Shown piece by piece: positions 17,817 to 43,798 of a stretch of 64,000 nucleotides of DNA. The stretch comes from an uncultured Erythrobacter sp. GTDB lineage: Bacteria; Pseudomonadota; Alphaproteobacteria; Sphingomonadales; Sphingomonadaceae. The first letter of the stretch is position 1. Each line of letters begins with the position of its first letter. The stretch covers positions 2,117,501-2,181,500 of the forward strand of contig CANLAD010000001.1 of NCBI GenBank assembly GCA_947488755.1, written 5' to 3'. Position numbers and translations under genes: made by a program. Under the pieces are notes generated by a model. The model was given only the letters and a program-made list of their open reading frames with translations, did no database searches and was not told where the DNA came from.

Positions 17817-17875
17817 CCTGTCTGATCCTCGTCACGGCTCCCCTCGCGGCCAGGTAATCCCTCCCCATTTGCCTT

Positions 17876-20510: not shown

Positions 20511-21193
20511 GAAACAGGTTCCTTGTCGGGCCGACGGAACCTGGCTCACCTTGCGGAAGGTGCCGATGAGAATAAATCGTGAACAACTCGCAGTCAATCG
20601 AAAGATTCAGACGATATTTCAGGGTTTTAGATGCATGAGAGTTGTCAGCGGATCAGCGCAAAGCCGCTCTACTCGCAGACGGGTTGATTTCGCCCAAAAC
20701 CACATTCTTTAGCAATAACAGAAAGATAAATCCCGAAATCGCGGGGTAGGGTGTGCTCCTTTGTTCCCAAGTGCGCGAGGAGGTCCAGGCAATAAGGGGG
20801 ATTGATCAAGGACGACCTTTCCCGATCTCCATGTTGGAGCGCGAGCAACCAGGCCTGGCACCTCTTCGGATGCAGATCGAGAGCATTCGACGCCTCCAGC
20901 CAAAGACAGCACCTGCGAAAGAGGCAGCGGCCAAGGGCGCGTGGGAAGCAAGGCAAGCGGGGCATGTCGCATGCCCTAGCTTCCCGCCGCCCGACCCGTT
21001 GCCGGTTCGCAAGTGCGTGCGGGGCCCAGGAGAAAATCAGGCCGCACCCTCAGGAGCGCATCGCAAGATGCGCGGGACAGAGTGCGTCCACAGCCCCGCT
21101 CCATTTATCGGGCGCCGCCACATTGCGGTGGGCGGCCGTCAGAGTAACCGACCGAACCGGTTTCTTGCGCTTCGATGGACTACCCGGCGAACA
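20511..21193. other. 683-nt non-coding stretch, probable transfer-origin region
   Basis: No convincing gene is seen on either strand. It sits upstream of the accessory-traD-traA operon, the usual place for oriT. It contains an AT-richer part at about 20560-20740 and a GGGTGTG-type motif described separately. The right half (20790-21190) is GC-rich with nothing I can name. Confidence 0.5.
20731..20765 (+). other. possible oriT/nic region
   Basis: A short inverted repeat (CCCG, 6 nt, CGGG) is followed by GGTAGGGTGTGCTCCTTT. This resembles the nic core of the F plasmid (GTGGGGTGT/GGTGCTTT), also used by a MobF relaxase. If homologous, the nick would fall between 20754 and 20755. The match is short and the plasmids are distant, so this is a weak call. 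Confidence 0.25.
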
Positions 21194-21230
21194 AGAAAAA
21201 AGGGCAGGAACCGTTCCCGGTTCCGGCCCT
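21194..21230 (-). terminator. intrinsic terminator of the 73-aa gene
   Basis: Read on the minus strand just after the stop codon of the 21241-21462 gene: a strong stem (GGGC-GGAACCG paired with CGGTTCC-GCCC, with one bulged base) is followed by a run of six T residues. This is a classic rho-independent terminator and supports that the small gene is expressed. Confidence 0.85.
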
Positions 21231-21240
21231 GTCGATAGTC

Positions 21241-21462
21241 TCAGAACTCGTCGAGCATGCCGCCGTGGACCGTGTGGACCACCCGCGCTGCGAGATGCGC
21301 TGGCAATATGTTGTAGTCACCCTCGTCGAGGGCAAAGTACCCGAGTTCGTCATCCTCGATAACGTGCTGATCGAAGAAGCTGTGCAGCGCTCTCTTCTCG
21401 GCTGTTTCCAGAGCCTCGAAATAGCTCCGGGACGGAAGGGCGCAATGCATTGAATAAGCCAT
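21241..21462 (-). CDS. hypothetical protein (73 aa)
   Basis: Starts at ATG 21462 (MAYSMHCALPSRSYFEALET) with an excellent ribosome site AGGAGG 6 nt upstream, and ends before a strong intrinsic terminator. The chain is acidic in its second half (VIEDDELGYFALDEGDYN). No family recognised. It lies in the backbone of the element between the transfer genes and the SSB, and is divergent from a possible 43-aa ORF. Confidence 0.65.
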   Translation of the reverse strand: MAYSMHCALPSRSYFEALETAEKRALHSFFDQHVIEDDELGYFALDEGDYNILPAHLAARVVHTVHGGMLDEF

Positions 21463-21508
21463 GATAATCCTCCTGATTTCTGTCGTGAGACGACAGGAGG
21501 CGTTCGCG

Positions 21509-21640
21509 ATGGTCTTGTGCATCCCGGGTCAGGGATCGCCCGAATGGGCGACCGCGATAGCGGCGGTGGGGGTAACGATTTTGTTCGCTGCCGGATGCAA
21601 TCCGGTGGCGGGCAAAATGGTGGGGCCCCGCCATCCTTGA
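21509..21640 (+). CDS. possible small single-span membrane protein (43 aa)
   Basis: ATG at 21509 has AGGAGG 9 nt upstream. The predicted protein has a short N-terminus, one hydrophobic stretch (ATAIAAVGVTILFAAGC) and a short basic tail. Divergent from the 73-aa gene. The ribosome site and the coherent membrane segment are the only support, and nothing is known of a function. The remaining sequence to 21807 holds a hairpin (TGTCGT-GAG-ACGACA at about 21480) and no other gene I can see. Confidence 0.35.
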   Translation: MVLCIPGQGSPEWATAIAAVGVTILFAAGCNPVAGKMVGPRHP

Positions 21641-21807
21641 GGCGGGAGGCGCAAGGCCATCATGCTGGGAGAACCGTGAGCAAGAACCCACAACCTCCGC
21701 CCAATATCAAACATCTCCTGCATGCGAATTGCCTTTCCTACACCCCGGTGACGCGGGCATGGAAACAACTGGGGAGCGGATCTGAGGGGGACAAAAGGAC
21801 AAGTAAC

Positions 21808-22074
21808 ATGCCCCGAAACAGGAGCGCGATTGCAGCCCTGCAAAAGCTCGAAGCGGACCGCGAGGCGCTCGACGCCAAACAACGCGAACTTGAAGTGCAA
21901 GCAGCCAGGGAACTCGGCGAAATCATCCTGGGAAGCGGCCTCGAAAGCTTCTCGAAGAAGGGCCTGAGGAAGGTTGCCGAAGAACTCGGGAAACTCGGCG
22001 AGGATGCCGCGATCGAGAAACTGACGGGGCGCGGTGCAACCCGTGCTTCGAATGCAGCGCCGGGAACCCAGTAA
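21808..22074 (+). CDS. small coiled-coil protein, DUF6437-like
   Basis: 88-aa protein from ATG 21808 (MPRNRSAIAALQKLEADREA), mostly helical with a heptad-like first half (LQKLEADREALDAKQRELEV) that suggests a coiled coil. It resembles small proteins common on sphingomonad plasmids (I recall DUF6437, not verified). A strong hairpin follows its stop codon. It may have a plasmid or DNA-associated role, but nothing in the sequence proves it. Confidence 0.6.
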   Translation: MPRNRSAIAALQKLEADREALDAKQRELEVQAARELGEIILGSGLESFSKKGLRKVAEELGKLGEDAAIEKLTGRGATRASNAAPGTQ

Positions 22075-22082
22075 CCACAGAA

Positions 22083-22116
22083 GAAGAGGCCCTGCCGCTT
22101 GCGGCAGAGCCTCTTC
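22083..22116. terminator. terminator hairpin between converging genes
   Basis: A 15-16 bp stem (GAAGAGGC-CTGCCGC against GCGGCAG-GCCTCTTC, with one mismatch) lies between the stops of the 88-aa gene and the convergent SSB gene. The minus-strand reading is followed by TTCTTCT. It probably acts in both directions. Confidence 0.7.
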
Positions 22117-22140
22117 GTAAGGGGACGATCGGGATCGATG

Positions 22141-22539
22141 TCAGTCGATCTCGGGAGCGTCGGTGTTGTCGCCTTCTTCACCCGAGCCGTTGCCGCGGGA
22201 GAGAAAGTCGACCTTGTCGGCGAGGATCTCGGTGCCGTAGCGCGTGACCCCATCCTTGTCCTCCCACTGGGTGTAGTGGATGCGGCCCTGGACACTGACC
22301 AGCTGGCCCTTTGAGCAGTACTGCCCGACGGTCTTGGCAAGGCCATTGAAGCAGGTCACCCGGTGGAACTCGCTTTCCTTGGCGGTGTAGCCGTTATCGT
22401 CCTTGTAGGTCTTGCCGTCCTTGTCGCGTGCGGGGCGATCGGTGACGACGGTGATCCCGGTGACGTTGGTGCCGCCCTGGGTCTCGCGGATGTCGGGATC
22501 GCGGGCGATGCGGCCGGTGAGGATTGCGATATTGGTCAT
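22141..22539 (-). CDS. ssb: single-stranded DNA-binding protein
   Basis: 132-aa OB-fold SSB: starts MTNIAILTGRIARDPDIRET, and includes FHRVTCFNGLAKTVGQYCSKGQLVSVQGRIH and YGTEILADKVDFL, the typical SSB core. The C-terminal tail is short and acidic but ends in EID rather than the usual Asp-Asp-Ile-Pro-Phe that recruits repair proteins. Such SSBs are common on conjugative elements, where they coat incoming single strands. The 268 nt upstream to the next gene holds no feature I can name. Confidence 0.92.
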   Translation of the reverse strand: MTNIAILTGRIARDPDIRETQGGTNVTGITVVTDRPARDKDGKTYKDDNGYTAKESEFHRVTCFNGLAKTVGQYCSKGQLVSVQGRIHYTQWEDKDGVTRYGTEILADKVDFLSRGNGSGEEGDNTDAPEID

Positions 22540-24209: not shown

Positions 24210-24881
24210 TCAGAGCCAGGAAATTCCGAGATGGTTTGGCCCATGCGCGAGTTCGCCGCCAAGGAAGCCCTGCACCAGAATAAGTGCTGCCATCGAGAAG
24301 ATAGCCGTACGCAACCATGCGCGGCTCTGGCTCGGCCTGCTCGCGAGGTATGCCATTGCCACACCGAGGACCGCGATCAGCATCCCGTTCCATCGATGGA
24401 CCTGCATGACGGCATCGCCTCCGAACCAAAGGCCGGTGTGAATCCATCCGAACAGAACTGCGACGACTGCGCCGATTGCTCCGCCGTAGACGAGTACGCC
24501 CACCGCACTTTCCAGGCCCGCTCCTTTCCGGCGCATCACGAACAATTCGGTGGCCGCAGCCATGAAAAACAAGGCGATCGGGAAGTGGATCGTTGCCGGA
24601 TGCAGCTTTTTCAGTACGGCCATGACGCCGGTTTCGCTCTCATCCGCATGGCCACCGGCCTCGTCATGGGCTGCGCCCGCTTCATCGTGCGCGCCGGAGG
24701 ACTCGCCAGCATCCGCAGTCTCGCCCATCTGCGCCATGGCCGCCTGGTCGTGCACATCGCCATTGGTGGCAGCAGGCGCGGCGCTCGCCTCTTCGCCGTG
24801 CTTTTCGTCGCCATGAGCCTGAACGGGTCCGACGAAGAGCAGGCTTGCGGCGAGCAGCGCCAGAAATGAGGGGGCTTTCAT
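24210..24881 (-). CDS. DUF2231-type inner-membrane protein with His-rich N-terminus
   Basis: 223 aa from ATG 24881 (MKAPSFLALLAASLLFVGPV), with a cleavable signal ending at VQAHG. A periplasmic His/Asp/Met-rich segment (AHDEAGGHADESET region) is followed by a four-helix membrane domain that starts LKKLHPATIHFPIALF, the mark of DUF2231 proteins found in copper and heavy-metal loci. Function in the family is unknown; the His-rich part suggests metal contact. It heads a two-gene unit behind a putative ECF promoter 48 nt upstream of the start. Confidence 0.75.
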   Translation of the reverse strand: MKAPSFLALLAASLLFVGPVQAHGDEKHGEEASAAPAATNGDVHDQAAMAQMGETADAGESSGAHDEAGAAHDEAGGHADESETGVMAVLKKLHPATIHFPIALFFMAAATELFVMRRKGAGLESAVGVLVYGGAIGAVVAVLFGWIHTGLWFGGDAVMQVHRWNGMLIAVLGVAMAYLASRPSQSRAWLRTAIFSMAALILVQGFLGGELAHGPNHLGISWL

Positions 24882-24929: not shown

Positions 24930-24956
24930 GATACGCACGGCAGCCGCGTGCCCCTC
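24930..24956 (-). promoter_or_regulatory. putative ECF-sigma promoter upstream of the DUF2231 unit
   Basis: Minus strand: GAGGGGCA, 13 nt, CGTATC, placed 48 nt before the ATG of the DUF2231 gene. It shares the -35-like AGGG core, exact spacing and CGTA -10-like core with three other sites at 30920-30946, 30961-30987 and 32400-32426. Confidence 0.5.
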
Positions 24957-25111
24957 GCATTAATTTGATAGTTCAGCGCGACTGAAGTGCGCCCGGGTGG
25001 TCACGCTTGCTGGCGGCATCATCGCGATCGTCGAACGCATTCGGCTCCTGGCCGCGTTCGGCCTGGCGAACGAGGGTAAGGCGTTCGCCCACGCGAATAA
25101 GCCCCATGGGC

Positions 25112-25843
25112 TCAGGCGAGCTTGCTCTTCTTTGCGCGGCGGCGCAGCCTCGGCATCCGGTTCGCCAGCAGGACGAAACCCGACAGGGCTATGATCGTGC
25201 CGCCAATGCCGAACAGCAGCAGCCACCAACTGTTGATGCGGTCGCGCTCGGTCCAGTCCATGATGTGGAGGCCCCAGATGAAATCGAACAGGCGCCATGT
25301 ATCGCTGCGCGCCGCCCCGAGCGTGCCGCTGGCGGCATCGATGTAGATGCGCGTCGAAGCCTCGTCAGCATAGGTGACCTGCCAGGCCGGAAAAGGGCCG
25401 CGAAACTCGGTTCCGATGGGGTCATCGACGATCCGTGCGGCCTCGATGGTCGTGCGCGGCCCGGTCCATGCGCGCAAGGCGATGGATTTTGCCGTTGCCG
25501 CCGAGATGGGGGAGAGTTTACGCCCAGTCACCGGATCGTGGAGGCTCACGCTACCGTCAACCTTGCGGACCTCGGTCACGGCATCGCCGTCGAGCGAACG
25601 TGTCGTTACCGCTGCAAGAGTACCGTCGTTTGCGACCCAGGCCGGGAGCGGGGCATCGGCGGGCAGCGCCTCTTGTTCACGCGAAACGACATGTTCGGAG
25701 CGAACTTCTTCCAGGTCGAGAAACGACATGAGGGCGCCGGTTCCCATCCACAAGAGAACCTGGACACCGACGAAAATCGCCAGCCATTTGTGGATCTTGC
25801 TGCCGAGCACATGCAGGCGCAGCTTCAGCGACGGCGTTGCCAA
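25112..25843 (-). CDS. PepSY-domain membrane protein
   Basis: 243 aa. A first membrane helix (IHKWLAIFVGVQVLLWMGTG), a periplasmic PepSY-like domain (FPAWQVTYADEASTRIYIDA), and a last helix near residue 210 followed by a basic end (RRRAKKSKLA) give the layout of PepSY-associated membrane proteins. These occur with reductase-like or metal-uptake functions; here the protein closes the copper operon, 27 nt after the preceding gene. Exact role unknown. Confidence 0.7.
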   Translation of the reverse strand: MATPSLKLRLHVLGSKIHKWLAIFVGVQVLLWMGTGALMSFLDLEEVRSEHVVSREQEALPADAPLPAWVANDGTLAAVTTRSLDGDAVTEVRKVDGSVSLHDPVTGRKLSPISAATAKSIALRAWTGPRTTIEAARIVDDPIGTEFRGPFPAWQVTYADEASTRIYIDAASGTLGAARSDTWRLFDFIWGLHIMDWTERDRINSWWLLLFGIGGTIIALSGFVLLANRMPRLRRRAKKSKLA

Positions 25844-25870
25844 CCGGTGCTACCTCTTCGAAAGCCGTAA

Positions 25871-26389
25871 TCAGTTGCGCGGCGCGCGCGACGAGGAATG
25901 GTACTGGACGATTCTCCACCCGTCCGCATCGTGAGCAAGCACCGATGTCGCCACGCCGTCGCGCTCGATCACCCGGCCATCGCTAAGTTCGATGCGATAG
26001 CCATACGTCTCATAGGCATGGGCCATGTGCCCCATCCGGGTGACGGTCAGCGTGGGGTCGGTAAAGGTGAAGCTCACAATCGCGTCGAGCTCGGGGCCCA
26101 AATGGTGCTCCATGTAATTGGCAAAGCTTCCTTCGGCCTTGCCATTCTCGAAGATCGCCGAGTCCTCGGCGAAGAGCGCGCGCATTGCCTGCGCGTCGCG
26201 CGCTTCAAGAGCGGTGCGATAGGCCTTGAGGGTTTCTTCAGCGCCCGCGACATCGTCCGCCGAAGCGTCCATCGCGTGCATCTGATGGTTCGCATGGGAA
26301 GAGTGGTCCATCTGCTGCGCGAAGGCTGGCAGCGGTATCAGCGTGGCAACAAGCGCAGTCGCCGCGATGCGTGTCAAGGTCTTGGTCAT
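25871..26389 (-). CDS. periplasmic SnoaL/NTF2-like protein (DUF4440 type)
   Basis: 172 aa with a signal peptide (ending PAFAQQ), a short His/Met-rich stretch (MDHSSHANHQMHAMD) and an NTF2/SnoaL-like fold (LKAYRTALEARDAQAMRALFAED, then DGVATSVLAHDADGWRIVQYH). The His/Met stretch and the place directly after copB suggest a copper-related periplasmic role; the NTF2-like fold itself does not define one. Confidence 0.7.
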   Translation of the reverse strand: MTKTLTRIAATALVATLIPLPAFAQQMDHSSHANHQMHAMDASADDVAGAEETLKAYRTALEARDAQAMRALFAEDSAIFENGKAEGSFANYMEHHLGPELDAIVSFTFTDPTLTVTRMGHMAHAYETYGYRIELSDGRVIERDGVATSVLAHDADGWRIVQYHSSSRAPRN

Positions 26390-26413
26390 GGAAGTTCTAT
26401 CCTTTTTGAGATT

Positions 26414-27727
26414 TCAGAACCAGAATCGCACACCGACGACATAATTGGTGACGCTCGGATCCTCTCCGGCGGCCCGCGCAAAATCCGCGCTGTCGCCGAT
26501 GCGCCATTCCTGGGAAACGCCGACATAGGGCGCGAATTCGCGTGCGAACTCGTAGCGAAGACGCAGACCTGCCTCGATCCGGTCGAGGCCAGCGCCAATG
26601 CCGAGTTCGGGAATATCCTGAGCGGAAAGTGCGATTTCGGCACGCGGTTGAAGGATCAGCCGCTGCGTGATGCGCTGATCAAGTTCGCCCTCAAAACGCG
26701 CCGTCACATCGCCCTTGGTGGAGACGAAGGCCGCGGCATCGACCTCGAACTGGTAAGGCGCGATCCCTTGGATACCGATAACCGCGTGCGTGCGTTCCGG
26801 ACCGGTCAGGTCCTGGCGAACACCCGCCTGGAAATCGAAGAAGGGCGCAATGGCGCGGCTCCAGAGCGCCTGGACCTCGGCGCCTTCTATGGGTTCGCCG
26901 AAGCTGCCCTCACCCTCGGACTTGAACCAGAATTTGTCGATGTCGCCGCCATAATATCCCTGGATGTCCCACAGATATCCATCCTTCCCCTCGCGGGCGC
27001 GGTACTCGAGCCGGTCGCCCTGAAACCAGAAGCGCATTCCTCCGTCGGTCTCGCGGACAAGCTCGCGGCGCGCTTCGTTCATGGCTTCCTCGCCCCAGAT
27101 GGCGACCGCCGCGCGCGCTGGGCCGCTCCCTGCTTCTGGAGGAGGCGGCAGCAGCGGGATATCATCGTCCGAGCCCATCTGCATCGCCGAATGGTCCATG
27201 CCCTGCCTGTCCTGCGAAGGCGTCTCCCCATGGTTCATCTGGCTGTGATCCATCTGCCCATGGTCCATCGACGAACTGGCCTCCGCCTGACCCATCTCGC
27301 CGTGATTCATCTGCGAATGATCCATCGCGCCTTCGGCGGGCTTGCCCTGCGGCATCGAGCCGTGATCCATTCCTTCATGACTTTCGGGCGATGCCTGTGG
27401 ACGGGCAGCGTCCACAGGCATTGTCATGCCAGAATGGCCATCCTGAGCGGTCATCGCACCATGATCCATGGTTGAGTGATCCATCTGCGAGCGGTCCATG
27501 GCGGCTTCAGGCTGGGCAGCCGGTTCGCATGCTCCATCTGCAACCGGATGCCCCATCGCGCGATGGCGCTCGGCTTCTTCCTCGCACTTCGTCTTCGCGT
27601 CAGCCTGCGCCTCGGCGCTTTGCTGCGGCTCCGCCGGCGAATGACCGGCATGCTGCGCCGCCGCGGGGGAGGCGAGAACTGAGCCGGCTGCGACCGATGC
27701 GAGCAGGCTGGCAATACGAATTTTCAT
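26414..27727 (-). CDS. copB: outer-membrane copper resistance protein CopB
   Basis: 437 aa with a signal peptide (SPAAAQHAGH), a Met/His-rich copper-binding region at residues 77-184 (repeats of MDHS-x-M and MNHGEM), and a C-terminal beta-barrel of about 230 residues ending VGVRFWF, the aromatic end typical of outer-membrane proteins. CopB proteins bind copper at the outer membrane and work with CopA. It overlaps copA by 4 nt, as in most copAB operons. Confidence 0.9.
   Translation of the reverse strand: MKIRIASLLASVAAGSVLASPAAAQHAGHSPAEPQQSAEAQADAKTKCEEEAERHRAMGHPVADGACEPAAQPEAAMDRSQMDHSTMDHGAMTAQDGHSGMTMPVDAARPQASPESHEGMDHGSMPQGKPAEGAMDHSQMNHGEMGQAEASSSMDHGQMDHSQMNHGETPSQDRQGMDHSAMQMGSDDDIPLLPPPPEAGSGPARAAVAIWGEEAMNEARRELVRETDGGMRFWFQGDRLEYRAREGKDGYLWDIQGYYGGDIDKFWFKSEGEGSFGEPIEGAEVQALWSRAIAPFFDFQAGVRQDLTGPERTHAVIGIQGIAPYQFEVDAAAFVSTKGDVTARFEGELDQRITQRLILQPRAEIALSAQDIPELGIGAGLDRIEAGLRLRYEFAREFAPYVGVSQEWRIGDSADFARAAGEDPSVTNYVVGVRFWF
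27176..27499 (-). repeat. Met/His codon repeats in copB
   Basis: Repeats coding for MDHSQM, MDHGQM and MNHGEM units. They explain the recurring cat/atg triplets here. Such tracts can change length by slippage. Confidence 0.7.
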
Positions 27728-29532
27728 GCTTCGCTCCCGTCGGGATTGGCGACCGTGACGATCTGAAACATCCCGGCATGCATGTGGTAGAGAAGGTGAC
27801 AGTGGAAGGCCCAGTCGCCCGGCTCGTCCGCCGTCAGGTCGAACTGCGCGCTGCCACCCGGCTGCAGGATTACCGTGTGCTTGAGCGGTTGACGATCGGC
27901 CGGCGCGCCATTGACCAGCTCGAAGAAATGACCGTGCAAGTGAATGGGGTGCGCCATCATCGTGTCGTTGACGAGCTTCACGCGCACGCGCTCGTTATAG
28001 GCGAAACGGATCGGCTCGTCTGAGACGGCGGAGAACTTCTTGCCGTCGAACGACCACATGTAGCGCTCCATATTGCCGGTCAGATGAATTTCCATTCGCC
28101 GGGACGGCGTGCGGCCCTCGCGGTGTGGAGTCAGAGCGCGCAGCTTGCGATAGTCGAGCGTACGATGCGGCACATCGGCGAGACCGATGCCGGGATCGCC
28201 CATGCGGTCGACCGGGTTCCTCGAGACCATGTCGAGACCGGGCCCGACCTTCACATCGGGCGGCAGAAGCGACGTGTCGCGCATCTGCATCCCCGACATG
28301 CCGGCCATGCCTGCCATCTCGGATTGGCCGGACGAACCATGATCCATCCCCGCCATGTCGCCGCCACTTCCGTGGTCCATGCCCGACATGCCGGCATCGC
28401 CAGACGAGCCGTGGTCCATGCCGCTCATGCCCATGTCGGCCATGGTCAGAAGCGGCGGATCGCGCAGCGGCGGAATGGCGGCGCGAGCGCCGGGTGCGCT
28501 CGCGAGTGTGGCAATACCCATGCCCGAGCGGTCCATCGACTCCGCGACCAGCGTGTAGGCTTGTTGCGCGCCCGGCGTCACGACGACGTCGTATGTCTCG
28601 GCCACACCGATCTGGAACTCGTCGACCTCCACCGGCTCGACGTTCTGCCCGTCCGCCTGAACGATGGTCATCGGCAGGCCGGGAATGCGAATATTGAAGA
28701 AGGTCATGGCGCCGGCATTGATGAAGCGCAGCCGCACGCGTTCGCCCGGGCGGAAGAGGTATTCCAGATTGTCGAGCGGGCCATGGCCGTTCAGAAGATA
28801 GGTATAAGCCGCGCTCGACACGTCGAGGATGTCCGTCGGCATCATGCGCATTTTCGCCCACATCCGGCGATCCTCGCCCGAAAGCGGGTAATCGTCGGTC
28901 CAGGTGTTCTGGTTGTAGTTGAAGTAGCCTTCGCCCTTCTTGAGCTTGTCGAAAATCGTGTGGGGCGACATTTCGCTGAATTCGCTCAGCACCACGATAT
29001 ATTCGCGGTCGGCCTGGACCGGATCGGGTCCGGCGGGGTCGACCACGATCGCGCCGTAATGCCCGGCCTGTTCCTGCAGGCCGCTATGCGAGTGCCACCA
29101 GTAGGTACCCGACTGGCGAACCGGGAATTCGGCGGTGAAGGTCTCTCCCGGTTTGACGCCGGGAAAGCTCACGCCAGGCACTCCATCGAGCTGAAACGGC
29201 ACGAGCAGACCGTGCCAGTGGATCGAGGTATCTTCCTCGAGCTGGTTATGGACATTGAGCCGGACGGTCGTGCCTTCCTGCAATCGCAACAGCGGACCGG
29301 GGATCGTGCCATTGACGGCGATCGCGCCGCCGCGCCTGTTGCCGGTCGCGAAGGCCGATCGGGCAACGGTGAGGTCGATATTGGGGCCGGATATCTCGTC
29401 CAGCCCCTTGCGGGCGTTACCTGCGAGGATGTCCGCGCCCCGTGCCCAGGCAGGCATCGCCCCGGCAAGGCCGAGCAGACCCATTCCTCCTGCTCCGGCT
29501 CCGAGAAACTTGCGTCGATTGACGGCGATCAT
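27724..29532 (-). CDS. copA: multicopper oxidase CopA (copper resistance)
   Basis: 602-aa periplasmic cuprous oxidase exported folded by the Tat route: the N-terminus has NRRKFLGAGAGGMGLLG. The four copper-binding His motifs are HWHGLLVP, YWWHSHSG, HPIHLHGHFF and FHCHLLYHMHAGM, with the type-1 copper Cys in the last. A Met/His-rich insertion lies at about residues 363-416. It oxidises Cu(I) and holds excess copper. Located 55 nt after the ECF sigma gene, with AGGAG before the ATG, and overlapping copB by 4 nt. Confidence 0.93.
   Translation of the reverse strand: MIAVNRRKFLGAGAGGMGLLGLAGAMPAWARGADILAGNARKGLDEISGPNIDLTVARSAFATGNRRGGAIAVNGTIPGPLLRLQEGTTVRLNVHNQLEEDTSIHWHGLLVPFQLDGVPGVSFPGVKPGETFTAEFPVRQSGTYWWHSHSGLQEQAGHYGAIVVDPAGPDPVQADREYIVVLSEFSEMSPHTIFDKLKKGEGYFNYNQNTWTDDYPLSGEDRRMWAKMRMMPTDILDVSSAAYTYLLNGHGPLDNLEYLFRPGERVRLRFINAGAMTFFNIRIPGLPMTIVQADGQNVEPVEVDEFQIGVAETYDVVVTPGAQQAYTLVAESMDRSGMGIATLASAPGARAAIPPLRDPPLLTMADMGMSGMDHGSSGDAGMSGMDHGSGGDMAGMDHGSSGQSEMAGMAGMSGMQMRDTSLLPPDVKVGPGLDMVSRNPVDRMGDPGIGLADVPHRTLDYRKLRALTPHREGRTPSRRMEIHLTGNMERYMWSFDGKKFSAVSDEPIRFAYNERVRVKLVNDTMMAHPIHLHGHFFELVNGAPADRQPLKHTVILQPGGSAQFDLTADEPGDWAFHCHLLYHMHAGMFQIVTVANPDGSEA
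28283..28446 (-). repeat. Met/His/Gly repeat region in copA
   Basis: Tandem units coding for MSGMDHGSSGDAG, MSGMDHGSGGDM and AGMDHGSSGQSEM. The DNA shows near-repeats of about 24-40 nt, explained by the copper-binding protein repeat. Confidence 0.75.
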
Positions 29533-29587
29533 AAAGGGCTCCTGACTTGGCGTTTACCGTTACTTACGCGCGCGCCCAGCCAACCCC

Positions 29588-30148
29588 TCAAAGTTTTTCG
29601 AAGCGCTCCTTCAGCCTGTTGCGCGCGCGATATACGCGGGTTTCGATCGCCTTTTCGGTCGTTCCGAGAAGATCGGCCGCCTCGGCCTGGCTACGCCCCT
29701 CGATGGTCACGAGCACAAGCGCTTCGCGCAGCCTTACAGGCATTCGCGCGATCTCGGCCTGAACGAGATTGAGCTCTTCCCTGGAAACGGCCAACGCTTC
29801 AGGACCCGGCAAATCGTCGGCGATGGAATGAAGTTCGTCATCACCCGACAGTCCGAAAAAGCCCGCGACCTTGCGCCTGCGCAAACGGTCCCGGCAGCGG
29901 TTGAGGACGACGGTTGTCAGATAGGGTCCGATCGGCTTGTCCGGATCAAGCCGATGGCGCGTCAGCCACACCGAAGCGAGGCTGTCCTGAACAACGTCCT
30001 CGGCCTGAGAAGGAGAGGAAAGCATGCGTGTCCCGAGCGCGAGAAGCCGACCAGTTTCATGCTCGACGAGTTGGCTGAAAGCCCGCTTGTTTCCAGCCCT
30101 CGCCTGCGAAACAAGGGCCTCATCCGGATTGTCGCCCGCCCCCGACAT
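29588..30148 (-). CDS. ECF RNA polymerase sigma factor, CnrH-like
   Basis: 186 aa. Region 2 includes AEDVVQDSLASVWLTRHRLD and PYLTTVVLNRCRDRLRRRK; region 4 is REALVLVTIEGRSQAEAADL followed by the recognition helix TEKAIETRVYRARNRL. It is the third gene of a Y-X-H set with 6 nt between it and the CnrX-like sensor. It should direct RNA polymerase to the RAGGG-N13-CGTA sites around it when released by the CnrY-like anti-sigma factor. The copper genes downstream indicate that copper (or silver), rather than nickel/cobalt, is the signal; this is inference. Confidence 0.9.
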   Translation of the reverse strand: MSGAGDNPDEALVSQARAGNKRAFSQLVEHETGRLLALGTRMLSSPSQAEDVVQDSLASVWLTRHRLDPDKPIGPYLTTVVLNRCRDRLRRRKVAGFFGLSGDDELHSIADDLPGPEALAVSREELNLVQAEIARMPVRLREALVLVTIEGRSQAEAADLLGTTEKAIETRVYRARNRLKERFEKL

Positions 30149-30154
30149 GGCGCT

Positions 30155-30589
30155 TCAGTCGCGAGGGTCGCGGGTCAAGGCGTCGGAGACCTTGCGGTCG
30201 AACTGGCGTTGCTGCTCGGGTTCGAGAATTTCGCGCATGTCGAAGACATGGCGCACCGTTGCTTTCTGCAGATCGCCCATGCGTGCATGCACCTCGTCGA
30301 TCGCGGCCGAGACCTCGGGACCGTACTCATGCTCGGTTTCCATCGCCTGGGCGAGCCGGGCATTGGCTGCACGCGCCGATCCTTCGAGCCGTGCCCTTTC
30401 GACAGCGAAACGAGCCTCGAGCGCATCGAGACGCTGCTCCTGGTCGGCCGTCAGGGTGAGTTCGTCGTGCACGAAATCGTGGAGGCCGGAGCCAGCCTCG
30501 TGATTGGCCCAGCGGTCCGCGGCAATCGCGCCGAGGCATCCTGCAAGTGCTGCGAGAAGCACCGCGAGAACGATATGCGTCGTCTTCAA
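30155..30589 (-). CDS. CnrX-like periplasmic metal sensor
   Basis: 144 aa, anchored by an N-terminal membrane helix, with an all-helical periplasmic sensor. It matches CnrX of Cupriavidus metallidurans in its key parts: GLHDFVHDE near residues 36-43 (His37 and His41, like CnrX His42 and His46) and the segment GDLQKATVRHVFDM (His114 and Met118, like CnrX His119 and Met123), which bind the metal there. It overlaps nothing but lies 3 nt from the upstream anti-sigma gene and 6 nt from the sigma gene. The signal metal is uncertain. Confidence 0.85.
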   Translation of the reverse strand: MKTTHIVLAVLLAALAGCLGAIAADRWANHEAGSGLHDFVHDELTLTADQEQRLDALEARFAVERARLEGSARAANARLAQAMETEHEYGPEVSAAIDEVHARMGDLQKATVRHVFDMREILEPEQQRQFDRKVSDALTRDPRD

Positions 30590-30592
30590 ACC

Positions 30593-30889
30593 CTATTGCT
30601 CCACATGGAGGAGCGCCGATGGGGACAGCTGTTCGCCGAGGATAAGACTCTCGCCAAATGACGCGGAAGACGTGCCATAGCCGCCGGGCCAACCGCTCGT
30701 TCCGGCGCCAGCTCCAAGCCCGACGACGAACAGACCGACGAACAGAGCCGTCCGGCGGCGTCGGTCGGCGATTTCGCCAAGCTGTCCGGCGCGCTGCCAA
30801 ACGCCATCCATGAAGTCGGCGGGGACCTCGCTGGTGCCGGTGGCGGAAAGGGTTCCGAGCACCGCATCAAGAGAGTGATTGTCACGCAT
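30593..30889 (-). CDS. CnrY-like membrane anti-sigma factor
   Basis: 98 aa from ATG 30889 (MRDNHSLDAVLGTLSATGTS). A cytoplasmic part of about 45 residues, one membrane helix (TALFVGLFVVGLGAGAG) and a short periplasmic tail give the CnrY layout, and the gene stands first in the Y-X-H order known from C. metallidurans. It would hold the sigma factor at the membrane until the sensor binds metal. Direct sequence similarity to CnrY is low, so the call rests on layout and order. Confidence 0.75.
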   Translation of the reverse strand: MRDNHSLDAVLGTLSATGTSEVPADFMDGVWQRAGQLGEIADRRRRTALFVGLFVVGLGAGAGTSGWPGGYGTSSASFGESLILGEQLSPSALLHVEQ

Positions 30890-30919
30890 CCGAAAAACTC
30901 CTGTGGGTTGCACGTGTCC

Positions 30920-30946
30920 TATACGCGCTCGCCTGCACAATCCCTT
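30920..30946 (-). promoter_or_regulatory. putative ECF-sigma promoter of the cnrYXH-cop operon
   Basis: Minus strand: AAGGGATT, 13 nt, CGTATA, ending 31 nt before the anti-sigma start codon. One of four matching sites in the copper region, and the one that would make the sigma factor autoregulated. Confidence 0.6.
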
Positions 30947-30960
30947 AAACTTCTTTTTTT

Positions 30961-30987
30961 GAGGGAATGTCCACCACCATACGTAAT
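30961..30987 (+). promoter_or_regulatory. putative ECF-sigma promoter of the methyltransferase-DUF411 unit
   Basis: Plus strand: GAGGGAAT, 13 nt, CGTAAT, ending 35 nt before the methyltransferase ATG. It is back to back with the cnr promoter, with only 14 nt between them, so both units may be switched on together. Confidence 0.55.
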
Positions 30988-31022
30988 CGAGACGGGTCTG
31001 TCAGAATCGGGTCGAACCCGGG

Positions 31023-31727
31023 ATGAATGGAAACCAACTCGTGAGCAATATCACCGCACCTGAAGATCACGGCGAATTTACGCCTCTTCTTGGCAAGAGC
31101 TTTCTGACGCCGCTTTACGACCGGGCGATCGGTCTGTTCACCCGCGAACATCTCTGGCGCCAAAGGATTGTCGAAGAGCTGCACCTTGTCCCCGGCGACC
31201 GGGTGATCGATGTTGGCAGCGGAACCGGCACTCTTCTCAAGGCCTTGATGACGGATTGTTTGGAAGCGGGTCTGATCGGTGTCGAACCCGACCCGGATGC
31301 GCTCGCGCTTGCGCGGCGCAAGTTTGGCGCGGGAGCCGATCTCGTGAAATGGCACAATGGCTTTCTCGAAAGCCTCAAGCTACCCGCAGGGTGGCAGCCG
31401 AACAAGATCGTCAGCAGCCTCGTCCTGCACCAGGTCCCCTTGCGCAAGAAGCAGACAATCCTGGAAACCATCGAAAGCTTGCTCGTGCCAGGCGGAACCG
31501 TGTTGATCTCCGATTATATGAAGCAGGATAGCCCACTCATGCGGAGCCTCTTCCGGGCGACCGTCCAGTCTCTTGACGGCATAAGCGACACGCAGCCCAG
31601 CGCCGACGGCGAAGTCGAAAAACTGTTCGCCGAAATCTTCACCGAGCCATGCCTGCTCCAACGGTTCCCGACGGCAACCGGGACGATCTCGCTATGGCGC
31701 GGATACAAGAAAGGAATTGCACAATGA
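31023..31727 (+). CDS. class I SAM-dependent methyltransferase
   Basis: 234 aa with the SAM-binding motif VIDVGSGTGTLLKAL and post-motifs IGVEPDPDALALARRKFG. The second half (SSLVLHQVPL, IETIESLLVPGGTVLISDYM) fits UbiE/COQ5-like small-molecule methyltransferases. The substrate cannot be read. Its 3' end overlaps the DUF411 gene by ATGA, so the two are coupled, and it sits behind a putative copper ECF promoter. Start ATG 31023; a GTG at 31041 is possible. Confidence 0.8.
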   Translation: MNGNQLVSNITAPEDHGEFTPLLGKSFLTPLYDRAIGLFTREHLWRQRIVEELHLVPGDRVIDVGSGTGTLLKALMTDCLEAGLIGVEPDPDALALARRKFGAGADLVKWHNGFLESLKLPAGWQPNKIVSSLVLHQVPLRKKQTILETIESLLVPGGTVLISDYMKQDSPLMRSLFRATVQSLDGISDTQPSADGEVEKLFAEIFTEPCLLQRFPTATGTISLWRGYKKGIAQ

Positions 31728-32188
31728 ATTTGAAAAAGCCTTCGCTGCTCCGGCGATCGATTAGCGGCGCGGCCTTGCTCGTGCTGGCAGCCTGTTCGAA
31801 CGTGGCTCAGGCAGCGACCTATACGATGTTCCGGGATCCAGGATGTGGGTGCTGTCTCAACTGGGCAGGCCATGTCGAAGACGGGATGAACACGAAGGTG
31901 GCATCGGTCGACAGCAACGACATGGCGGCGATCAAGACCGCGCGGGGCGTACCCCAAGAGTTATGGTCATGCCATACGATGGAGGTCGATGGATACATCA
32001 TCGAAGGTCACGTGCCTGCAGAAGCCGTCGCCAAGCTTTTGCGCGAACGGCCCGCCGGCGTTGCCGGCCTCGCGGTTCCGGGAATGCCTCTGGGATCGCC
32101 CGGCATGGAGGCCGGAAACCGGATCCAGCCTTACGACGTCATCGCCTTTGGCCCAACCGGACAGAGCGTCTTCGCGTCCTTTCCGTAA
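31724..32188 (+). CDS. DUF411 periplasmic metal-binding protein
   Basis: 154 aa with a lipoprotein-like or Sec signal (VLAACSNVAQA), then the DUF411 core: RDPGCGCCLNWAGHVE, followed by VPQELWSCHTMEVDGYIIEGHVPAEAV. The Cys-x-Cys-Cys and Cys-His are likely copper ligands; the family is found in copper-resistance loci (for example with CopA/CusF). Coupled to the upstream methyltransferase by a 4-nt overlap and followed by a terminator-like hairpin. Confidence 0.85.
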   Translation: MNLKKPSLLRRSISGAALLVLAACSNVAQAATYTMFRDPGCGCCLNWAGHVEDGMNTKVASVDSNDMAAIKTARGVPQELWSCHTMEVDGYIIEGHVPAEAVAKLLRERPAGVAGLAVPGMPLGSPGMEAGNRIQPYDVIAFGPTGQSVFASFP

Positions 32189-32282
32189 GGGGGTGAAGCC
32201 ACTCCATGCGTCGGCATGAAAGGTTGCAGGCGATGAGGACTAATTGCGGGAAGCGACACAGAAGCCTGTCGAACTTCTCGCC

Positions 32283-32317
32283 GGGTCCGGGCTGGCTGCC
32301 CCCACAGTCCCGGACCC
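32283..32317 (+). terminator. terminator hairpin after the DUF411 gene
   Basis: Perfect 9-bp stem GGGTCCGGG / CCCGGACCC with a 17-nt loop, followed by TTCCAATTT. It lies between the DUF411 stop and the next promoter, so it probably ends the methyltransferase-DUF411 transcript. Confidence 0.6.
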
Positions 32318-32399
32318 TTCCAATTTGTATGATTGCAGCACGCACGAAATAGGAGAAATGCGATAGTCAAAAGCTCGGTCAGAAATGCTGGATCTTTTT

Positions 32400-32426
32400 A
32401 AGGGGTGAACCTCTGCCCAACGTACT
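32400..32426 (+). promoter_or_regulatory. putative ECF-sigma promoter of the APC permease operon
   Basis: Plus strand: AAGGGGTG, 13 nt, CGTACT, 48 nt before the permease start. The sequence before it (TTTTT-AAGGG) resembles that of the cnr site (GTTT-AAGGG). Same exact spacing as the other three sites. Confidence 0.5.
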
Positions 32427-32474: not shown

Positions 32475-33827
32475 TTGCAGACAGATGGCGACGATCAACA
32501 TAGCGAGAATGCGGGCTCGATAACGTTGCTGGGCGGTGTCGCGATGGGGACCGGCGTCATGATTGGCGCAGGTATCTTCGCACTGACCGGCCAGATTGCC
32601 GAACTGGCTGGACCGTTATTTCCGCTTTCTTTCATAGTCGGCGCGCTGGTTACCTCGCTTGCCGCCTACAGCTACATCAAGATGTCGAACCGCTGGCCCT
32701 CCTCTGGCGGCATCGCGATGATCCTTCAGAAGGCTTACGGACCGGGCGTCGTTGCAGCATCGGCATCGCTCCTGATGGCGCTGTCGATGGTCATCAACGA
32801 AAGCCTGGTCGCTCGGACCTTCGCGACCTATGCCTTGCGGCCCTTTGGGCTCGAAAGCAGCGGCATTCTGGTCTCCGTCGCGGCACTGGCCCTCATCGTT
32901 TTCGCCTATTTCGTGAATGCTGCTGGCAACAAATCGGTCAGCGGGTTTTCGCTCATTATGTCGGCAATCAAGATCGGCGGCATCGCCCTGTTCGCAATTG
33001 CGGCGATCTGGGCCACCGGATTTTCAGGCGGTGCCTTCGCAGAGCCGGTCGCGCTTTCGGGCCTCGACGCGTTGCTCGCTTCGGTCGCTTTCTCGATCCT
33101 CGCTTTCAAGGGTTTCACCACCATCACCAACAGCGGCGGCGAAATCATCGATCCGCATCGGAATGTCGGCAGAACCATTATCATTTCGATCGCAGTATGC
33201 GTGGTCGTCTACCTTCTCGTCGCGGTGGCGGTCGGCGCCAGCCTCAGCACTTCAGAAATAGCCGAGGCGCGCGATTACTCTCTTGCGGCAGCTGCGCGCC
33301 CCGCGCTCGGAGAGCTTGGCTTCTATTTCACAGTCGCAATCGCGATCGCAGCCACGACCTCGGGTGTCATCGCCAGTGTTTTCGCCGTTTCGCGAATGCT
33401 GACGATGCTGACCGAGATGAAGATGATCCCGCATAGCCATTTCGGCATGAGCGGACCGATCCGCAGTCACATGCTGGTCTATACCGTAGTGATTGCCGGC
33501 ACGCTCGCGGTCCTGTTCGATCTGTCGCGGATCGCTTCGCTCGGAGCATTTTTCTATCTCGTAATGGACATGCTTGTGCATTGGGGCGTGCTGCGCGGTT
33601 TGCGGGAAGAGATCGGTGCGCGTGCCTGGGTGCTATGGTCGGCACTCGTGGCGGACAGCGTAGTCCTGACAGCTTTTGCCTTCGCCAAGCTCAAAACCGA
33701 CCCTGCGGTCGTCGCCTATGCGGTCGCAGGCATTGCCGCCGTTTTCATCGCCGAATGGTTCTATTTGTCCAGGCGTTCGCAAGCGATGGACTCCGCTTCA
33801 GAAAGACCGGCGGAAGAGAGGCGGTGA
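32475..33827 (+). CDS. APC-superfamily permease
   Basis: 450-aa transporter with about 12 membrane segments; the N-terminal motif GVAMGTGVMIGAGIFALTGQ is the classic APC substrate-binding region. Such proteins move amino acids or related solutes by proton coupling. The start is a TTG at 32475, since the next in-frame Met lies inside the first conserved helix. First gene of an operon with glutaredoxin/MauE, channel, DUF305 and lipoprotein genes, behind a putative copper ECF promoter. The substrate is unknown. Confidence 0.8.
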   Translation: MQTDGDDQHSENAGSITLLGGVAMGTGVMIGAGIFALTGQIAELAGPLFPLSFIVGALVTSLAAYSYIKMSNRWPSSGGIAMILQKAYGPGVVAASASLLMALSMVINESLVARTFATYALRPFGLESSGILVSVAALALIVFAYFVNAAGNKSVSGFSLIMSAIKIGGIALFAIAAIWATGFSGGAFAEPVALSGLDALLASVAFSILAFKGFTTITNSGGEIIDPHRNVGRTIIISIAVCVVVYLLVAVAVGASLSTSEIAEARDYSLAAAARPALGELGFYFTVAIAIAATTSGVIASVFAVSRMLTMLTEMKMIPHSHFGMSGPIRSHMLVYTVVIAGTLAVLFDLSRIASLGAFFYLVMDMLVHWGVLRGLREEIGARAWVLWSALVADSVVLTAFAFAKLKTDPAVVAYAVAGIAAVFIAEWFYLSRRSQAMDSASERPAEERR

Positions 33828-33927
33828 CCCCGTTAGTAGAACACGAGCGCAAAGGCAGCGACCAAAAGCCGACGAGGATCGAGGCGCCAAGTTCGCGGAT
33901 CAAAAGAAATTCAAGACGGAGCATATC

Positions 33928-34689
33928 GTGACGACTATTACTGCCACCGTTTACCGAATGGTCATGCCGGACCACGTTTGTCCGTATGGATTGAAAACGG
34001 TCGATTTGCTCAAACGCGAAGGTTTCGAGGTGGACGACCACCATTTGAAAACGCGCGAGGAGACCGATGCGTTCAAAGAGCAGCATGGGGTAGAAACCAC
34101 CCCCCAAACCTTCATCGGCGGGAAGCGCATCGGAGGTTACGACGATGTCCGTGAGCATGTCGGCAAGAAAAGAACGCAAGCCGGTGATGACGAGACCAGC
34201 TACCAGCCCGTCATTGCCATTTTCGGCGTCGCTTTCCTCCTGGGTCTGGCAATTAGCTGGTACGTTTTCGACACGATTTTCACGGTGGAAGCGGTCGAAT
34301 GGTTTGTCAGCCTATCGATGGCCTTGCTCGCGATCCAGAAGTTGCAGGACGTGCGCAGCTTCTCGACCATGTTCCTCAACTACGATCTGCTGGCGCGACG
34401 CTGGGTACGATATGGATTTCTATATCCGTTCGGTGAGGGTTTGGCTGGAATATTAATGGTCGCGCACGCGCTTCCGATCGTCTCGGTTCCGGTATCGCTG
34501 TTCATAGGGACGGTCGGCGCGGTCAGCGTGTTCAAGGCGGTCTACATCGACAAGCGCGAGTTGAAATGCGCTTGCGTCGGCGGAAGCAGCAACGTGCCGC
34601 TCGGCTTCGTATCGTTGACCGAGAACCTGTTCATGATCGGTATGGGTCTTTGGATGGGTGCCAAGGCCCTGGGTTGGGTCTCGCTATGA
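33928..34689 (+). CDS. glutaredoxin-MauE fusion membrane protein
   Basis: 253 aa from a GTG at 33928 (VTTITATVYRMVMPDHVCPY). The N-terminal glutaredoxin domain has a single-Cys active site CPYG and the TTPQTFIGGKRIGGYDDV glutathione-binding segment. The C-terminal half is a MauE/DoxX-like four-helix membrane domain (EAVEWFVSLSMALLAIQKLQ, then FLYPFGEGLAGILMVA) ending in a Cys-x-Cys loop (KCACVGG). It may carry thiol reduction across the membrane or help maturation of a metalloprotein. The gap upstream (101 nt) holds no other gene. The stop overlaps the next start by ATGA. Confidence 0.8.
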   Translation: MTTITATVYRMVMPDHVCPYGLKTVDLLKREGFEVDDHHLKTREETDAFKEQHGVETTPQTFIGGKRIGGYDDVREHVGKKRTQAGDDETSYQPVIAIFGVAFLLGLAISWYVFDTIFTVEAVEWFVSLSMALLAIQKLQDVRSFSTMFLNYDLLARRWVRYGFLYPFGEGLAGILMVAHALPIVSVPVSLFIGTVGAVSVFKAVYIDKRELKCACVGGSSNVPLGFVSLTENLFMIGMGLWMGAKALGWVSL

Positions 34690-35102
34690 TTTGGGCACTG
34701 CTTCTCGGTTTCGCGCTGTTCGCGATCTCTCTCTACTTCCACATGTTGATGCTGCGCGGGGCGAAAGCCGTTTCTCCGCCAGGCAAGGACCCACGCCATT
34801 TCCGGCTGCTTGCAGGCTCCAGCCTCGTTCTTCTCAGCCATCTGGTCATCGCCGGCATATTCGCGGGCGGAATGTATCTCGCTTCCGTCTGGGGCCTTGG
34901 CGGGCTCGAGAAGGACGTCATCAACAGCTGGATGGATTATTACTACTTCGCGCTGATCACGATCTCGACGGTCGGTCTCGGCGATATTCTGCCCGCCGGG
35001 CACATGCGCGCCATTTCCGGCATCGCCGCCCTTACCGGGTTCCTGATGATCAGTTGCACCGCCCAATATGTCTATCAAACCATGAGCGAAAAGGAGAATT
35101 GA
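34686..35102 (+). CDS. two-helix ion channel protein
   Basis: 138 aa with three or so hydrophobic segments and the pore sequence ALITISTVGLGDILPAGH. TVGLGD matches the K+ channel selectivity filter (TVGYGD) except Tyr to Leu, which may alter selectivity. This is the Ion_trans_2 layout: helix, pore loop, helix. It overlaps the Grx-MauE stop by 4 nt and is followed 1 nt later by the DUF305 gene. The role in metal stress is unknown. Confidence 0.75.
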   Translation: MIWALLLGFALFAISLYFHMLMLRGAKAVSPPGKDPRHFRLLAGSSLVLLSHLVIAGIFAGGMYLASVWGLGGLEKDVINSWMDYYYFALITISTVGLGDILPAGHMRAISGIAALTGFLMISCTAQYVYQTMSEKEN

Positions 35103-35103
35103 T

Positions 35104-35637
35104 ATGGCTGAAGCTAGGCACGATGCACACGAAAAAGGTGGAGGGGGCGGCAACTACTGGCGGTTCATGGCAATGGTATCGACCTCGACCGTGATCATGT
35201 TCTTCCTGATGTATGCCAACAGCTTCGACATGGACGACGTTTTCTGGAGCGAGACGCGCTTCTGGATGATGTTCGTCATGGGCGCGATGATGATGGTGGT
35301 CATGCTTCTCTTCATGTGGGGCATGTACAAGGACCGGACCAAGAACTTCATCATCTTGGGTGTCGGAGCCGTCGTCTTCGCGCTCGCGCTATGGCTCGTA
35401 CGCAGCCAGACCACGGTGGACGATACCGAATACATGGCCGCGATGATCCCGCACCACTCGATCGCGATCATGACTAGCGAGAGGGCGAGCCTGAAGGATC
35501 CGCGGGTTCGCGAACTCGCGCAGGCCATCATCGTCGCGCAGCGGCGCGAGATCGCCGAGATGAAATATCTCATCCAGGACATCGAGGAAAACGGTCCGCG
35601 CACCGAAGAACGCCTGCCCGAGGAGATGCAGCAATGA
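35104..35637 (+). CDS. DUF305 membrane protein
   Basis: 177 aa: three membrane helices in the N-terminal half (Met-rich: MFVMGAMMMVVMLLFMWGM), then a DUF305 domain (DDTEYMAAMIPHHSIAIMTSE, then RVRELAQAIIVAQRREIAEM). DUF305 proteins occur in copper and other metal-resistance clusters, and the His-His and Met residues may bind metal. It overlaps the next gene by 4 nt. Confidence 0.85.
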   Translation: MAEARHDAHEKGGGGGNYWRFMAMVSTSTVIMFFLMYANSFDMDDVFWSETRFWMMFVMGAMMMVVMLLFMWGMYKDRTKNFIILGVGAVVFALALWLVRSQTTVDDTEYMAAMIPHHSIAIMTSERASLKDPRVRELAQAIIVAQRREIAEMKYLIQDIEENGPRTEERLPEEMQQ

Positions 35638-36122
35638 ACAAGATCGCAATCCTGACGCTTGCAGCCCTCCCTCTGGCGGCCTGCAACACCAATACCGCGG
35701 TCGGCAATGATCGCGAAGCACAGCTCGATCCCCCGGCAACTGCGGCGCCGATAGAGAGTGCTGCGAGCGCTCTTGCCAACCTCAGCCCGGGCCTCATGCT
35801 GCCCGAGACCATGAGCGACGCGGACCTCGCCACGCTGGGAGCCGAGAACACGTGTCAGTTTCGCCTGACTGAGGTCGCGTTTCCGTCGTTCGTCTACGAC
35901 AACAGCGGTGGCGGCGCGATCAAGATCAACGGCAAGCTGATCCCTGTCACAGCAAGCGCCCCGGGTGAGTATGCGAATGGTGAGCTTCGTATCCGCACGC
36001 GCCTTCTCGATGACGAAGGAGACGCGGGCCTGCAGATGCAGGAACTCATCGTCGCCGGACCTCGGATGAAGGACGAGTTCGGGTTCTGGGGGTACACGAC
36101 CTGCGGCAACAGCGAGGCGTGA
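35634..36122 (+). CDS. periplasmic lipoprotein, unknown function
   Basis: 162 aa with a lipoprotein signal (LAALPLAAC-NTN). The mature part is an Ala/Pro-rich linker and a small domain with two Cys (ENTCQFRL and GYTTCGNSEA) that could form a disulfide. Last gene of the APC-Grx-channel-DUF305 operon; a hairpin follows. No family recognised. Confidence 0.75.
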   Translation: MNKIAILTLAALPLAACNTNTAVGNDREAQLDPPATAAPIESAASALANLSPGLMLPETMSDADLATLGAENTCQFRLTEVAFPSFVYDNSGGGAIKINGKLIPVTASAPGEYANGELRIRTRLLDDEGDAGLQMQELIVAGPRMKDEFGFWGYTTCGNSEA

Positions 36123-43433: not shown

Positions 43434-43798
43434 TCCTGCTCGCGGCACCGCTGGCGCTTGCAGCCTGCGACGCTGCAGACGACAGCTCAGAGACCATGAT
43501 GTCTGACGACATGGCGAACTCGGACAGCATGCCCATGTCAGGCGAAATGCCGATGGCGGAAGAGACCGGCGGCGAGCAGAGCGCCAGCGCGGAGGGAACG
43601 GTAACAGCCATCGATTCCGAGGCGGGCACGGTGACCATCGAGCATGGTCCGGTCGAAAGTATCGGATGGCCCGCGATGACCATGGCCTTCGAAGCCGACG
43701 CGCAAATCCTCGAACAGGTCAGTGTCGGTGAGGGAATAGCCTTTGAATTTCGTACTGGAACCGAAGGCAGCGTCGTTACCTCGGTAACGCCGCGATAG
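43412..43798 (+). CDS. cusF: CusF-like copper chaperone (lipoprotein)
   Basis: 128 aa with a lipobox (LALAAC-DAA), a Met/Asp-rich linker ([13 protein letters not shown]) and a CusF domain with [16 protein letters not shown]; the His, Trp and two Met residues match the Cu(I)/Ag(I) site of E. coli CusF. It hands metal to CusB/CusA from the periplasm. Its domain nearly repeats the C-terminal part of CusB here. Confidence 0.9.

Follow-up and report, generated by a model that had tools for sequence, protein, structure and literature searches.

A CnrYXH-type ECF sigma factor module and its predicted promoter code on a putatively mobile copper island of Erythrobacter

A 64,000-nucleotide stretch from an uncultured Erythrobacter sp. 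(NCBI GenBank assembly GCA_947488755.1, contig CANLAD010000001.1, positions 2,117,501 to 2,181,500 of the forward strand; hereafter the window) carries a block of copper genes around a CnrH-like sigma factor gene. Our analysis indicates that this block is very probably a mobile copper island in which a metal-sensing CnrY-X-H-type module with an extracytoplasmic function (ECF) sigma factor holds five transcription units under one promoter code. The promoter motif, its placement and conservation, its co-occurrence with the regulators and its match to mapped CnrH boxes were computed, whereas we infer how the sigma factor is released, that the sites drive transcription and that copper is the signal.

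In its best form the motif reads RAGGG-N16-CGTA, often with TTT in front. Six matches were detected in the window, compared with 0.46 ± 0.64 expected from 100 shuffles, none of which reached six, and each of the other spacings from 8 to 25 nt gave at most one match. The initial annotation had described four promoters with the pattern RAGGGRNN-N13-CGTA. All four are present (promoters 1, 3, 4 and 5 in Table 1), and their cores and fixed spacing, equivalent to RAGGG-N16-CGTA, were retained, but the R after AGGG is dispensable because related loci carry any base at that position. Moreover, the count is five, as a site 32 nt upstream of copA (promoter 2) had been overlooked. The divergent promoters 1 and 3 are the back-to-back pair already recognized between the sigma operon and the methyltransferase-DUF411 unit. 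Across the five sites CGTA lies 32–50 nt from the start codon, and the predicted 5' leaders would measure 24 to 42 nt, assuming a transcription start 12 nt past the C of CGTA.

The sixth match, at 43730 on the plus strand, was first read as the promoter of a second multicopper oxidase gene and then set aside, given that it lies in cusF coding sequence, lacks TTT and has a spacer as conserved as its boxes. It is kept in 14 of 16 loci examined, the window included (the 16 were taken from 29 matches), and the equal conservation of the spacer suggests that coding explains it and that its resemblance to the promoters is probably coincidental. Another match, at 42127 on the minus strand, fits only the initially annotated pattern (it has no R before AGGG), lies antisense in cusA and was attributed to chance.

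The regulatory operon has the order anti-sigma factor, periplasmic sensor, sigma factor, as in CnrY-X-H. CnrH is the best solved relative of the sigma factor (Protein Data Bank entry 4cxf, E = 3.4e-29), followed by SigW (2e-14), which bears out its earlier designation as CnrH-like. For the sensor, the best solved relatives are CnrX and NccX (E = 6e-22 and 8e-22), and the top 15 Foldseek matches of its AlphaFold model (predicted local distance difference test score, pLDDT, 83; predicted template modelling score, pTM, 0.66) are all CnrX or NccX chains. The anti-sigma factor gave no match in Pfam or NCBIfam; aligned with CnrY, it has a C-terminal SPxxLL in common, and inspection by eye points to one likely transmembrane helix. 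We take ECF20 to be the group name for CnrH relatives. ECF20 promoter sequences were not found in the available parts of PMC3817407 and PMC10880074.

The strongest evidence on the nature of the boxes came from the cnr locus of Cupriavidus metallidurans plasmid pMOL28, where RAGGG-N17-CGTA was found upstream of both cnrY and cnrC; another match in this locus, within cnrB, has a 16-nt spacer. The mapped cnrYp and cnrCp transcript starts on pMOL28 are placed at 53286 and 54660 in the available part of PMC9045368, and by our computation both fall 12 nt past the C of CGTA. The boxes of the window would thus represent the -35 and -10 elements of a CnrH kind of sigma factor. By the same token, the motif is already known from Cupriavidus, whose mapped CnrH promoters carry it with a 17-nt spacer.

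Conservation was followed in 44 related loci, comprising the best 39 of 78 (L009–L047, with sigma factors 47–100% identical), two plasmid loci and three genome stretches. In the 39 loci, RAGGG-N16-CGTA was matched 190 times, while any other spacing between 8 and 25 nt gave at most 32 matches. AGGG-N16-CGTA was detected upstream of the anti-sigma gene in 41 of 42 loci (the remaining one has N17), of the CopA gene in 42 of 43, of the DUF2231 gene in 35 of 38, of the methyltransferase gene in 35 of the 37 loci having it and of the APC gene in 37 of 39, compared with 1 of 357 for ten other genes pooled. The boxes are also present where the sigma factor is only 72, 70, 59, 54, 47 or 35% identical; homologous spacers in diverged loci are 52–66% alike, and as these sites were picked by the motif, the constancy of their boxes is not an independent measure. 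In the window, the sigma gene ends in a TGA that falls within the -35 box of the copA promoter; in L038, L040, L046 and L123 the corresponding letters are read as Phe-Glu-Gly codons. That the same letters are a stop in some relatives and sense codons in others argues for selection on the DNA rather than on the protein.

Two of these loci (L038:15091 and L040:14998) have a site before an extra stretch without Pfam match, ahead of DUF2231, which may hold further regulon members. In Pelagerythrobacter aerophilus Ery1 (L014:8884-9560) the sigma gene (99%) and the copA promoter are kept, the anti-sigma gene was not found at the locus, and the sensor is reduced to residues 109–144; the sigma factor of this strain may be unrestrained.

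Genome-wide, the motif was searched as an exact pattern rather than with a position matrix. The 3.27-Mb genome contains 20 RAGGG-N16-CGTA matches, six of them in the window island (the one in cusF included), four at a second module and ten elsewhere. Nine of the 20 are in clear promoter position, and all nine belong to two homologous sigma modules, five to that of the window and four to its paralog. This second Y-X-H-copA-copB module lies about 1 Mb away (C1:1140000-1158500, L122), has a sigma factor 65% identical, and also holds DUF2231, methyltransferase, DUF411, P-type ATPase, APC, glutaredoxin-MauE, DUF305 and DUF6692 genes. The initial annotation had expected the motif not to occur at chance frequency across the genome, in agreement with the finding that only ten matches lie outside the two modules, each overlapped by an open reading frame (ORF) of at least 120 aa. 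Such overlap is a weak sign of chance, as opposite-strand ORFs overlap promoters 2 and 3 too. One of the ten (C1:1479671-1479695, L099) is located some 30 nt upstream of an ORF of 403 aa and is overlapped by an ORF on the opposite strand; it may be a chance match or a further target.

Co-occurrence of motif and regulators was measured in 199 genomes of the family with the stricter form TTNRAGGG-N16-CGTA, a close sigma factor being defined by E<1e-45. As some sigma-negative genomes held sensor homologs, the genomes were regrouped by sensor. The motif occurred 3.21 times per genome in those with a close sigma factor (n = 34), 1.20 times in those with a sensor homolog and no close sigma factor (n = 46), and 0.31 times in those without sensor (n = 119), whereas the reversed control was flat over the three groups (1.29, 1.43 and 1.48). 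The comparison of the close-sigma group with the no-sensor group gave a Mann-Whitney p of 1e-18, which is indicative given that the genomes are related. The close-sigma group contains 109 motif sites, and among the 107 listed, 87 lie within 10 kb of a sigma gene. Overall, 34 of the 199 genomes have a close sigma factor and 80 have sensor homologs.

The following mechanism is proposed on these grounds. At rest, the small membrane anti-sigma factor Y would hold the sigma factor H. Excess periplasmic metal, most likely copper, would bind the sensor X, and in the metal-bound state the Y-X complex would free H. The released H would then bring RNA polymerase to the (TTT)RAGGG-N16-CGTA promoters of its own operon, of copA-copB-SnoaL-PepSY, of DUF2231, of methyltransferase-DUF411 and of the unit running from the APC permease through glutaredoxin-MauE, channel and DUF305 to DUF6692.

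The identity of the signal is the part of this scheme on which the sensor itself speaks both ways. Of 30 distinct sensors, 29 retain all five residues that we take to be the nickel/cobalt ligands of CnrX (H42, H46, E63, H119 and M123); the exception is L014, where most of the sensor gene has been lost. Such retention would be expected if the same sigma-promoter system sensed nickel/cobalt or several metals, with the copper genes forming part of a broad periplasmic response. We consider this unlikely, as none of the sites was seen to control a nickel/cobalt pump and copA-copB lie behind the sigma gene in the mapped loci. Moreover, in place of the Pro, Glu, Ala and Ile of CnrX, copper-island sensors have H87, H101 and M104 (29 of 29) and M83 (28 of 29; window numbering), respectively. 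These four residues may bind copper, possibly as an added metal site, but a single shared site within one monomer is doubtful because in the helix listing of the AlphaFold model residues 83–87 and 101–104 lie on different parts of the hairpin. In addition, CnrX has been deposited with copper bound (3epv, by its title), so the old CnrX site can take up copper too. Judged from the target genes, copper is the most likely signal.

A further question is which sigma factor serves the sites. The same genome has a paralogous Y-X-H module with four motif sites of its own, which makes crosstalk likely. It could be the resident paralog whose sigma factor serves the sites of the window, in full or in part, or the two could cross-activate, in a shared regulon. 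We regard such sharing as plausible and only tentatively entertain it, since one such sigma factor suffices elsewhere: among the family genomes that have a sigma match at E<=1e-30, 38 of 44 have just one. In any case, it would bear on self-containment and leave the mechanism untouched. The description of the island as a self-contained ECF regulon in the initial annotation is accordingly kept in that the motif leads five island units, but the shared promoter code makes this wording too strong, and self-sufficient is the better term.

Copper genes are often controlled by DNA-binding regulators of the CueR, CsoR or CopR type, and the island of one relative does contain cueR and response regulators. 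It is nevertheless very improbable that the boxes are an operator for a regulator of this kind instead of an ECF promoter, since they have no inverted symmetry on inspection, keep a fixed -35/-10 geometry and an orientation towards the gene, match the mapped CnrH promoters of Cupriavidus and co-occur with the sigma factor and the sensor. Several of 14 loci compared are 92–99% identical to the window over the island, so that shared ancestry of near-identical DNA, or chance, might be invoked for the motif as a whole. The shuffle test, the persistence of the boxes at 35–72% sigma identity with diverged spacers and the use of the same code at the paralog leave this explanation with hardly any credibility.

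Several observations weigh against control of the five units by a copper-responsive CnrH-type sigma factor. The spacer has 16 nt here and 17 in cnr, and the retained nickel/cobalt ligand set leaves room for doubt on copper as the signal. The locus counts are not independent, because near-identical mobile copies account for many of the 39. The exact site is missing at copA in L015, at DUF2231 in L038, L039 and L123, at the methyltransferase gene in L122 and L124, where DUF2231 leads the unit, and at APC in L047 and L088; L047 is also the locus with N17 before Y. Plasmid locus L164, found by DNA similarity, has exact sites only before copA and the divergent DUF2231 unit, and none before its anti-sigma or APC genes. 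In the genome, the reversed-pattern control is commoner than the motif (48 vs 20 matches), which means that the two do not have the same base rate. Finally, seven close-sigma loci have no TTN-form motif within 10 kb; once TTN was dropped, AGGG-N16-CGTA was found at one or more expected slots in all seven.

The layout of the island is given in Table 1. On the minus strand, the sigma operon is followed by the genes for CopA, CopB, SnoaL and PepSY proteins and then by the DUF2231 gene with its own site; on the plus strand, the methyltransferase-DUF411 pair precedes the unit headed by the APC permease. The initial gene calls for the APC permease, glutaredoxin-MauE fusion, pore protein, DUF305, DUF2231, methyltransferase and DUF411 agree with Pfam. 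Further right in the window lie genes for an outer-membrane efflux protein, CusB, CusA, CusF, a second multicopper oxidase and a P-type ATPase. To the left (14892–22539), the genes for a TrwC-type relaxase, a TrwB-type coupling protein and a single-stranded DNA-binding protein suggest that the copper block lies in or beside a conjugative element, and several genera hold loci 92–99% identical to the window across the island. The right margin of the copper block holds a gene (48290–50242, minus strand) for a fusion of an FTR1-type iron permease with a cytochrome c domain, next to one for a cation-efflux protein.

Table 1. Predicted promoters and genes of the copper island (window coordinates).
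Feature	Position	Strand	Remarks
Promoter 1 (autoregulatory), AAGGG-N16-CGTA, upstream of anti-sigma gene	30922..30946	-	predicted start ~30913
Promoter 2, GAGGG-N16-CGTA, upstream of copA, counterpart of cnrCp	29565..29589	-	-35 box overlaps sigma stop codon
Promoter 3, upstream of methyltransferase-DUF411, divergent from promoter 1	30961..30985	+	
Promoter 4, upstream of APC permease-glutaredoxin-MauE-channel-DUF305-DUF6692	32400..32424	+	
Promoter 5, upstream of DUF2231 gene	24932..24956	-	
Doubtful sixth match, within 3' end of cusF, upstream of second multicopper oxidase	43730..43754	+	without TTT
Anti-sigma factor, CnrY-like, 98 aa	30593..30889	-	
Periplasmic metal sensor, CnrX-like, 144 aa, all five CnrX ligands	30155..30589	-	
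ECF sigma factor, CnrH-like, 186 aa	29588..30148	-	
CopA-type multicopper oxidase	27724..29532	-	
CopB outer-membrane copper protein	26414..27727	-	
SnoaL-like protein	25871..26389	-	
PepSY membrane protein	25112..25843	-	
DUF2231 membrane protein, ATG at 24881	24210..24881	-	Pfam
SAM-dependent methyltransferase	31023..31727	+	Pfam
DUF411 protein	31724..32188	+	start approximate; listed ORF 31649-32188
APC-family permease	32475..33827	+	Pfam
Glutaredoxin-MauE fusion	33826..34689	+	start approximate; listed ORF 33676-34689
Ion-channel pore protein (PF07885)	34566..35102	+	
DUF305 protein	35104..35637	+	CopM-like in NCBIfam, below NCBIfam cut-off
DUF6692 protein	35634..36122	+	

We compared the module with known systems. 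It resembles CnrYXH in the Y-X-H order, in a promoter before Y and a second one between H and the first target, in the RAGGG and CGTA boxes, and in the five sensor ligands, the sensor fold and the SPxxLL end of the anti-sigma factor. It differs in its targets, which are copAB, DUF411, DUF305, APC and others here and the cnrCBAT pump in cnr, and in the 16-nt spacer, the divergent promoter pair, the three further units and the extra His and Met residues of the sensor. No CnrCBA-type resistance-nodulation-division (RND) pump follows the sigma gene, where copA-copB are found instead, and for this reason we name the module CnrYXH-type and not a Cnr system; the RND genes of the window, those for CusB and CusA, are not directly behind a confirmed site. 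The plasmid YXH-copAB loci of Novosphingobium (NZ_CP054857, NZ_CP017078) and Aurantiacibacter (NZ_CP015441) are alike in module order, copAB and motif sites, with partly other target genes. They are annotated as sigma factor and periplasmic heavy metal sensor, with no promoter or signal given.

ECF factors linked to copper, as far as the available parts of PMC10141476, PMC12153292 and PMC8999054 describe them, comprise CorE-like or CarQ-like factors, Mycobacterium SigC (copper acquisition) and Acinetobacter SigAb. CorE of Myxococcus xanthus is likewise an ECF sigma factor of the copper response with a multicopper oxidase target, but according to the portions available of PMC10141476 and PMC8999054 it carries, in place of an anti-sigma factor, a Cys-rich extension at its C terminus, whereas the window sigma factor has 186 aa and one Cys and is encoded with Y and X. 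The SigAb-AabA-AabB system of Acinetobacter, tied by its authors to copper stress, pairs an ECF sigma factor with a small anti-sigma factor, AabA, whose modelled contact is like that of CnrY and CnrH; in the available text of PMC12153292, however, its direct regulon consists of sigAb, relA and a small RNA, with copper genes only indirectly affected, and no CnrX-type sensor is named. In the part of the open-access PMC literature covered, we found no CnrH-type or sphingomonad copper ECF system and no CnrYXH set described as controlling copAB from promoters of its own.

A broader interpretation, which we put forward tentatively, is that these loci form a widespread, undescribed class of anti-sigma-governed copper ECF systems, in which a CnrX-type sensor kept its nickel site and gained M83, H87, H101 and M104 for copper. 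The code being common to mobile and resident copies, an arriving island might join the copper regulon of its host and recruit permease, channel, glutaredoxin-MauE and methyltransferase genes to copper defence. As far as sequence comparison can tell, a nickel-type switch appears to be wired to copper in many sphingomonads. The exactness of the promoter code makes the regulon readable from sequence, and it would place the APC permease, glutaredoxin-MauE, the ion channel, DUF2231, DUF6692 and methyltransferase-DUF411 in a metal response.

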